DNA of 47,208 nt from the NCBI GenBank assembly GCA_031271405.1, contig JAISVT010000003.1:1-47208 (forward strand), in the 5' to 3' direction. The position numbers and the translations under genes are program-made. This stretch comes from Candidatus Endomicrobium macrotermitis. GTDB lineage: Bacteria; Elusimicrobiota; Endomicrobiia; Endomicrobiales; Endomicrobiaceae. The notes under the pieces were generated by a model, which did not search any database, was not told the DNA's origin, and was given only the letters and a program-made list of their open reading frames with translations. This document shows, piece after piece, positions 45,373 to 47,208 of the stretch; the stretch's first letter is position 1; the number at the start of each line of letters is the position of its first letter.

Positions 45373-45537
45373 AAGCAGCTTTAGTCTGCTTCTGGTGAAA
45401 ATCCTTTGAAGTGGTGGTCAGTAAATTTTTATCGAACTATATACAATGAACTAAATAGCATTTACCGCCTACACAATACTCCTTTTATTCAGCAATTATA
45501 CATAAAACACCTGAATAATGGAAGTGCAGCCAAATAA
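45373..45537 (+). repeat. repeat copy C (carries the ssrA-flank match and the coding C-terminal part)
   Basis: Left part matches 47053-47099 (about 42 of 47 bp); right part matches copy B. Confidence 0.85.
45400..45537 (+). pseudogene. C-terminal fragment of the split small ORF (copy C)
   Basis: NPLKWWSVNFYRTIYNELNSIYRLHNTPFIQQLYIKHLNNGSAAK*. Confidence 0.65.
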
Positions 45538-45601
45538 TATCCAATAGTCTTTTATGATACAATGTGCTTGTATTTTCCAAAAGAACAAAAAGGAGTAAGT
45601 T

Positions 45602-46165
45602 ATGGCAAAATTTGTGGGATTATTGGCAAACGCAAATGACTTTTTTGAAGCGGCGGAGCGGTGCGGGTGGGAACGCATAATAGATAAACTGGAAAACATA
45701 CAGACAACAAGGGAAAATTCGCCATTGTTTATACCCCAAATGGTAAATATGTCTTTTGCCTGTGAATTATATTTAAAAGCTATAGCAGAAGATAAATGTA
45801 TTGTCGTGGATAAAGTCCATGAACTTGATAAAATTTTTGAAAAGCTCCCAAAAGAAATTAAAAAAGAAATTTTTGATATATGGTGTGAAAATGCAGGCGA
45901 AAACATTGTTGATTGTGATTGTACAAGGAAAATGTTTTTTAACAACTTAGAGGCAGTTGGAAACGTTTTTAAGCGGTTTAGGTATGCGAATGAATGGGCT
46001 GGCAGTACCGTTAGTTTAAGCAGCAGTTTAACACTGGAACAATTTACAAAACTTTCGCCATTGAGTATCAGATCTCGAGAGGATTTGCTACGCCCGTCAA
46101 TATATGACGGTTTTTTAAGGCAATTTGCGTTATCTCTTAGAATATATACAGAAAAAATAGACTAA
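45602..46165 (+). CDS. HEPN-like domain protein
   Basis: FIPQMVNMSFACELYLKAIAEDKCIVVDKVHELDKIFEKLP resembles HEPN helices. Confidence 0.6.
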   Translation: MAKFVGLLANANDFFEAAERCGWERIIDKLENIQTTRENSPLFIPQMVNMSFACELYLKAIAEDKCIVVDKVHELDKIFEKLPKEIKKEIFDIWCENAGENIVDCDCTRKMFFNNLEAVGNVFKRFRYANEWAGSTVSLSSSLTLEQFTKLSPLSIRSREDLLRPSIYDGFLRQFALSLRIYTEKID

Positions 46166-46938
46166 TCTTTGATGTTCAGTTCTGCTCTATTTGAGGCTAT
46201 TAAAATTGTTGCAGGAATGCAAACTTTGTATGATGGAGATGCGATATCTATTATTGTCCAAACCCATAGAGCCCAGCCGAGCGGTCCCACGACAAATTTT
46301 AAAACTTGTTGTAAACCTCCAAAAAGCAACCATTTGGGGGCTGTTTTTTTAAGAATCTCTCTAAAAATAAAGATAACAAATTTATTTAAAGCATAATACG
46401 CTCGTATGCCATGAACCTTCACCAGTATTTTAACAGTTAATTGAGAAATATTGGTAAGTATTATGCCGTATTTCTTTTTCATAAAACCAGCAAATTCTTT
46501 GAGAAATGTTTCACGTTCATCTTGAGACATGTTATCAAGCATATCTTGCATATCTTGTTCTTTTCGTATGAGCAACCGTTCTTCCATTACTTCAATAGAG
46601 GATTTTTGAGTAATTTGTACTTTTGATTTTTTGCATACATCATAAAGCATCTCTCTATAGGAAACACCCTTGCGATTGTGATAAATATTTTTTAAAGATT
46701 TGTTCAATCCGTCTTTAGGGATTTGTTTGTAGCGAACATTTCTTAAACTGCGATAAAAATTTGCAATGGTATTGCCAGCAAATTTAAGCAACTCATCAGC
46801 TATTTTATCAATATGTTTTTTTGGGTTGTTTAGAATGGTTTTGTTTAACTCAAAAGACCATTTTTTTGACATAAGAGATATTAACTGTTTCAAATCTTCT
46901 TCTTGGAAATCTTTTAAAACTTCTAAATATTTGTCCAT
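46162..46938 (-). CDS. YaaW/UPF0174-like protein (DUF3944-type N-terminus)
   Basis: FAGNTIANFYR, SYREMLYDVCKKSKVQ, VGPLGWALWVWTIIDIASPSYKVCIPATILIASNRA parallel E. coli YaaW as remembered. Confidence 0.7.
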   Translation of the reverse strand: MDKYLEVLKDFQEEDLKQLISLMSKKWSFELNKTILNNPKKHIDKIADELLKFAGNTIANFYRSLRNVRYKQIPKDGLNKSLKNIYHNRKGVSYREMLYDVCKKSKVQITQKSSIEVMEERLLIRKEQDMQDMLDNMSQDERETFLKEFAGFMKKKYGIILTNISQLTVKILVKVHGIRAYYALNKFVIFIFREILKKTAPKWLLFGGLQQVLKFVVGPLGWALWVWTIIDIASPSYKVCIPATILIASNRAELNIKD

Positions 46939-46960
46939 TTTACAACTCCTATTAAATTAA

Positions 46961-47095
46961 AAAATAAAAAAAGACGTTCAGAGTTTGATAACGCCAAAAG
47001 GCTTTATTTTTAAAGAAAAAGTTATCGAACTTAAAGAAACGCCTGATTTTATAAGCAGTTTTAAGTCTGCTTCTGATGAAAATCCTTTGAAATGG
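46961..47095 (+). pseudogene. N-terminal fragment of the split small ORF, abutting the ssrA 3' end
   Basis: Open frame ...LITPKGFIFKEKVIELKETPDFISSFKSASDENPLKW ending at the tmRNA acceptor stem. Confidence 0.5.
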
Positions 47096-47208
47096 AGGTG
47101 GCGGGAATTGAACCCGCGTCCGAAAATGTTTTGGTAAGACCGCTACAGGCTTAGTCCGGAAATTTTTTCTCGTTTATAACGCCGTCACCGGACGGGATTA
47201 CGTTATAA
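47093..47208 (-). ncRNA. ssrA: tmRNA, 3' part (gene continues beyond window)
   Basis: Minus strand GTCCGG...CCGGACTAAGCCTGTAGCGG...GGACGCGGGTTCAATTCCCGCCACCTCCA: pseudoknot stem, T-arm and acceptor strand; CCA not encoded. Confidence 0.92.

Follow-up and report, generated by a model that had tools for sequence, protein, structure and literature searches.

The window analyzed here, 47,208 bp of the Candidatus Endomicrobium macrotermitis genome, is an entire contig (C22) whose end falls within the tmRNA gene (ssrA). This gene has its 3' end at 47093 on the minus strand and goes on in another contig of the same genome (C50), the start of which overlaps window positions 47183–47208 by exactly 26 bp. 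The overlap looks like an assembly-graph junction, and it could also represent strain variation at the site. Next to ssrA lies a short coding remnant, here called the head, that resembles large serine recombinases (LSRs) at their C-terminal end, and farther into the window are copies of a second sequence, the tail. We take these as the putative P and P' halves of a phage-type attachment site (attP), with the 3' end of ssrA as the target (attB). The following features were recognized, cargo genes included:

39996–40028, plus strand: possible oldest tail fragment (tentative), beside the amiC start; repeat family D5, 70–76% identity
43451–43511, plus strand: tail A, partial, distal part only; repeat and tail searches, match at 43459–43502
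43569–44220, plus strand: cargo, RelE/ParE-type toxin and HI1420-type antitoxin; TIGR02683 and PF21716 above cut-off, TIGR02684 below
44305–44451, plus strand: tail B, preceded in frame by a few codons of head (AKNPFR); 84% DNA identity to copy C, frame open across the core; repeat-search match at 44291–44412
44515–44772, minus strand: cargo, STAS-like DUF4325 protein; PF14213
44783–45373, minus strand: cargo, 196-aa protein with no family assigned; no Pfam, NCBIfam or PADLOC match
45369–45411, plus strand: short stretch of head (SASGENPLK) left from the next older module, joined to tail C; repeat with 47053–47092, one base deleted
45412–45537, plus strand: tail C, the P' or distal attP half and putative native LSR C-terminal tail; repeat and tail searches, copy matched at 45360–45530
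45602–46165, plus strand: HEPN-like protein, last-module cargo; Pfam HEPN matched weakly, E 0.037
46162–46938, minus strand: cargo of the last module, JukA-like anti-phage defense protein; PADLOC JukA, E 6.6e-28
46934–47092, plus strand: LSR C-terminal remnant, the head (P half of attP)
47093–47099, plus strand: shared core at the ssrA-proximal end, TGGAGGT; compared with copies B and C and with a tRNA insertion in another genome (G258)
47093–47208, minus strand: 3' part of ssrA, attB target; RF00023, 68.5 bits, E 1.2e-25, the contig stopping inside the gene

Judged from its sequence, the window is a tandem array of remnant modules with toxin–antitoxin, STAS, HEPN, and JukA-like cargo. The tentative fragment at 39996–40028 gave no match to the tail model at E < 0.01, and two other genomes, G300 and G301, have a tail at the equivalent place beside amiC. 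This gene lies beyond the array in the window and in G291, G300, and G301, while G293 has the order amiC-ssrA-tadA with no head or tail detected at the ssrA flank, representing the empty site. By eye, the distal bases of the tails (CAATTATACATAAAAT...AATGGAAGT) resemble a sigma-70 promoter on the minus strand, for example at 45471–45525, directed outward from the module toward its neighbor.

A preliminary description of this DNA had proposed that a small open reading frame is split between the two ends of the last module and that the halves would join in frame at a shared repeat. Direct comparison confirmed that 47053–47099 repeats 45373–45418 and that copy C lacks one base upstream of the core, as had been described. 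The core TGG[A/T]GGT is common to both ends of the module (47093–47099 and 45412–45418), and joining the halves there gives KIKKDVQSLITPKGFIFKEKVIELKETPDFISSFKSASDENPLKW followed by WSVNFYRTIYNELNSIYRLHNTPFIQQLYIKHLNNGSAAK and a stop, an open frame that measures 85 codons between stops and 77 if counted from a TTG at 46985, with the remaining two frames closed many times over. When the fused translation was searched against 341 genomes of the phylum, homologues turned up in 11 further genomes, all of the same family, two of which (G296 and G265) span the junction without a stop. The fusion therefore exceeds what chance would produce, and the claim that the two halves belong together is borne out by these intact homologues. 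G296 carries head and tail without interruption in one 94-codon open frame of 67% identity (NQLR/WRQVDFYRTLSNE...NN, the slash marking the junction), and the divergent G265 copy carries the junction in one frame at 35% identity (RNSVNRFE/WRRVDIYRTL), its head codons RNSVNRFEW recurring at a tRNA 3' end. The fused peptide matched nothing in Pfam or in the phage and plasmid collections, which rules out a known small protein family as its identity.

The product family, which the preliminary description had left unrecognized, can be assigned through a relative of the same genus, G291. At the corresponding end of ssrA, this genome encodes an LSR of 483 aa, residues 432–483 of which are 67% identical to the window head with one stop. 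That stop is an in-frame TAA at 46958–46960, the head being open from 46961 into the tmRNA gene; in the repeat search the head was matched at 47012–47101, against ssrA. The G291 gene is a 520-codon frame lying directly against the ssrA 3' end and continuing through it, antisense, as RWRELNPRPKMFW..., so that the integrated LSR remains open (514 aa) with a swapped tail. It has a Resolvase domain (PF00239, E 1.6e-33) and a Recombinase domain (PF07508, E 2.7e-8), together with a weak zinc ribbon (PF13408) below cut-off, and its best NCBIfam match is XisF, also below the cut-off of that family. Its N-terminal serine motif YTRVST aligned to TP901-1 (3bvp), residues 158–306 match A118 (4kis), and long helices at 331–404 in a low-confidence model are consistent with a predicted coiled coil. 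The predicted structure as a whole (pLDDT 57) is too poor for placing the core in the fold. An origin from a tyrosine integrase was considered and rejected, the adjacent gene family being serine-type and the three tyrosine recombinase genes of the source genome all lying on contigs other than the window.

A second LSR at ssrA, 66% identical and with one in-frame stop, was found in G275, and further LSRs or remnants lie at tRNA-Arg (G308) and tRNA-Ala (G285) genes, so that the targets seen comprise ssrA (G291, G275, and the window), a tRNA gene (G258), tRNA-Ala, and tRNA-Arg. The intact LSR element of G291 at ssrA (L032:4706-14700) forms a ~10-kb island, likely one devoted to defense, whose genes include ADP-ribosylglycohydrolase-like, restriction-methylase-like, and HEPN-like ones.

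We conclude that the split frame is the 3' end of a predicted LSR gene, that is, of the putative integrase itself. The earlier suggestion that the attP core lies inside coding sequence is upheld, the core being flanked on both sides by LSR frame. The expectation that excision would rebuild a small open reading frame holds for the in-frame junction and fails for the product, which is the 3' end of the LSR gene and not a stand-alone frame. Moreover, the LSR body is absent from the last module and the window remnant does not include the resolvase catalytic domain; because of this deletion and the stop at 46958–46960, excision of the last module would rebuild a C-terminal fragment only.

Evidence that the tail once belonged to this gene comes from other insertions and from the tails themselves. 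In G258 a 5'-truncated LSR with internal gaps adjoins a tRNA gene, and the core GTGGAGCCA is present at both ends of the element, followed at the distal end by the tail WSQLNFYRTL; when the ends are joined at the core the LSR frame carries on as ENQLRW-SQ-LNFYRTLSNELNGIYRL. Nine of ten tails keep the frame open, alternative frames usually having 1 to 6 stops, and the frame is retained in the divergent copy at the tRNA-Ala site. Substitutions counted by parsimony number 39/33/58 at codon positions 1/2/3 (permutation p = 0.018), and those in the distal half, beyond 66 nt from the core, number 10/9/21. Based on the open frame and this third-position excess, we read the tail as formerly protein-coding and not an att site alone, although the signal is modest.

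It could be argued that head and tail serve solely for DNA recognition, as an extended attP with arm sites, and that the open frame is incidental. On each side, the ~25 bp nearest the core must function as an att site, and the outermost bases of the tail (CAATTATACATAAAAT) show conservation at every codon position. The stop codon that ends the tail varies from copy to copy, so part of the tail conservation could reflect att function at the DNA level. As an explanation of both halves this is nevertheless very improbable, since the head is plainly LSR coding sequence, the third-position excess is greatest far from the core, and the frame has stayed open in nearly all copies, including the divergent one at tRNA-Ala.

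No single element was found to combine a complete LSR with an intact in-frame tail. The G291 distal tail has a 2-base insertion, and its joined frame stops after WRGK; a tail was looked for in G275 and not found. A broader search of genome contigs for a free complete element returned four Endomicrobia-type genomes with only the LSRs already found, a search of IMG/VR returned one distant LSR, and other phage and viral searches returned distant LSRs or nothing. A small helix-turn-helix-like open reading frame with no Pfam match adjoins the tail at the tRNA site of G258 (L034:10680-10982) and at the ssrA site of G296 (L035:10013-10420).

Taken together, these observations are probably best explained by Endomicrobia integrative elements that are moved by an LSR whose own gene has attP within its 3' coding end. 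The identity of the head, the position at ssrA and tRNA genes, the in-frame fit, the coding history of the tail, and the tandem order can all be read from the sequences compared. We infer a circular form in which the LSR would read through the core into a native tail of ~40 aa. Its recombination with the 3' end of ssrA or a tRNA gene at the core (TGGAG) would leave the LSR body abutting the tmRNA or tRNA gene and ending in antisense codons (RWRELNPRP...), while the far end of the element would retain the codons of the native tail (the last ~40 aa). To this inferred part also belong the chemistry, the sequence of events, and whatever effect the exchanged tail may have. Repeated insertion at ssrA would stack modules such that every internal junction consists of an older head and a newer tail, the order expected if each new element enters at the ssrA-proximal end, and the window would be such a stack after loss of the LSR bodies. 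The element account is favored by the cargo, as the HEPN-like gene (68% to the gene beside the G291 distal tail) and the STAS gene (87% to a gene in G300, of a different genus) both adjoin tails in other genomes.

An array of the same final order, older head with newer tail, would also result from homologous recombination between an incoming circle and a resident LSR copy, and the LSR genes of related elements do have long homology in common. We regard this route as unlikely in place of repeated site-specific insertion, given that several junctions hold only short heads and that site-specific insertion is required regardless for the elements in tRNA genes and for G301, where a single module is present.

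A further reading is that the modules are not decayed LSR elements but active cassettes moved in trans, in the manner of integrons, by an LSR encoded elsewhere. It would accommodate the lack of an LSR in most modules, their cargo of toxin–antitoxin and defense type, and the evident shuffling of that cargo, the tail-adjacent STAS gene in G300 having a different partner gene from its counterpart in the window. The heads, however, are cut at varying places and carry stops or deletions, as decay predicts, the last module of the window has both ends in common with the LSR-bearing G291 element, and a genome search found no close LSR in the source genome, the nearest having 32% identity. Active trans cassettes thus appear distinctly improbable. 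On the preferred reading of decayed LSR elements, the absence of a close LSR makes the array look orphaned, at best mobilized in trans.

The layout invites comparison with the "suicidal" tyrosine integrases of the SSV1, pTN3, and pT26-2 types, which have attP within their own gene and are, according to a review, exclusively archaeal (PMC8371274). Both place attP within the integrase gene, have that gene split by integration at a tRNA gene, and form a compact int-attP module (PMC8371274), although no complete free form was seen here. In contrast to the archaeal tyrosine enzymes, which are left as two inactive parts, the Endomicrobia enzyme is bacterial and of the serine type, and it appears to lose only its C-terminal tail, keeping the catalytic domain and gaining antisense-tRNA codons. 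In mycobacteriophage BPs, attP lies inside the repressor gene and integration removes ~33 C-terminal residues, leaving the 3' remnant at the other end (PMC4557955), and insertion by attP x attL/attR has been proposed for tandem prophages of M. abscessus (PMC9934374). The attP in a coding gene, the 3' remnant at the far end, and tandem insertion are thus parallels, but BPs splits its repressor whereas the Endomicrobia element splits the integrase itself.

Among serine enzymes, the Endomicrobia LSR resembles TP901-1, A118, phiC31, XisF, and CcrB in having Resolvase and Recombinase domains, a likely Zn ribbon, and a predicted long coiled coil, and it differs from them in having its attP core in the coding 3' end and ssrA or tRNA 3' ends as targets. 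As in integron cassette arrays, small toxin–antitoxin and defense modules are stacked at one site, most of them without their own recombinase; unlike in integrons, the repeats derive from the end of an LSR gene, the anchor is ssrA, and nothing points to the involvement of a tyrosine IntI or of attC sites. The literature searched yielded no account of a serine integrase in which attP falls within the coding end of the gene, a weak negative as subscription papers were poorly covered.

The tRNA-overlapping layout may be common more widely in the phylum. In at least 9 of the 37 LSR loci inspected (L115, L116, L117, L120, L121, L122, L124, L052, and L055), the LSR 3' end overlaps the 3' end of an antisense tRNA gene, for example ending GAGFEPATSRL. 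The distal ends of these other elements yielded no convincing core repeat or lay on contigs that were too short. Where the layout applies, the att sites of tRNA-using LSRs could be found simply, the 3' end of the gene marking the core, which matters for genome-engineering tools. A bacterial serine version with the tail exchanged at insertion would mean that the same solution arose independently of the archaeal tyrosine enzymes, and it would make testable whether the C-terminal tail of an LSR sets the direction of recombination. It is conceivable, if doubtful at present, that the serine integrase rewrites its own C-terminus by design, with the ~40-aa tail in the free form and tmRNA-antisense codons in the inserted form. 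If true, C-terminal rewriting could act as an inherent switch governing activity or direction, and it would explain the stable stacking of defense cassettes at ssrA.
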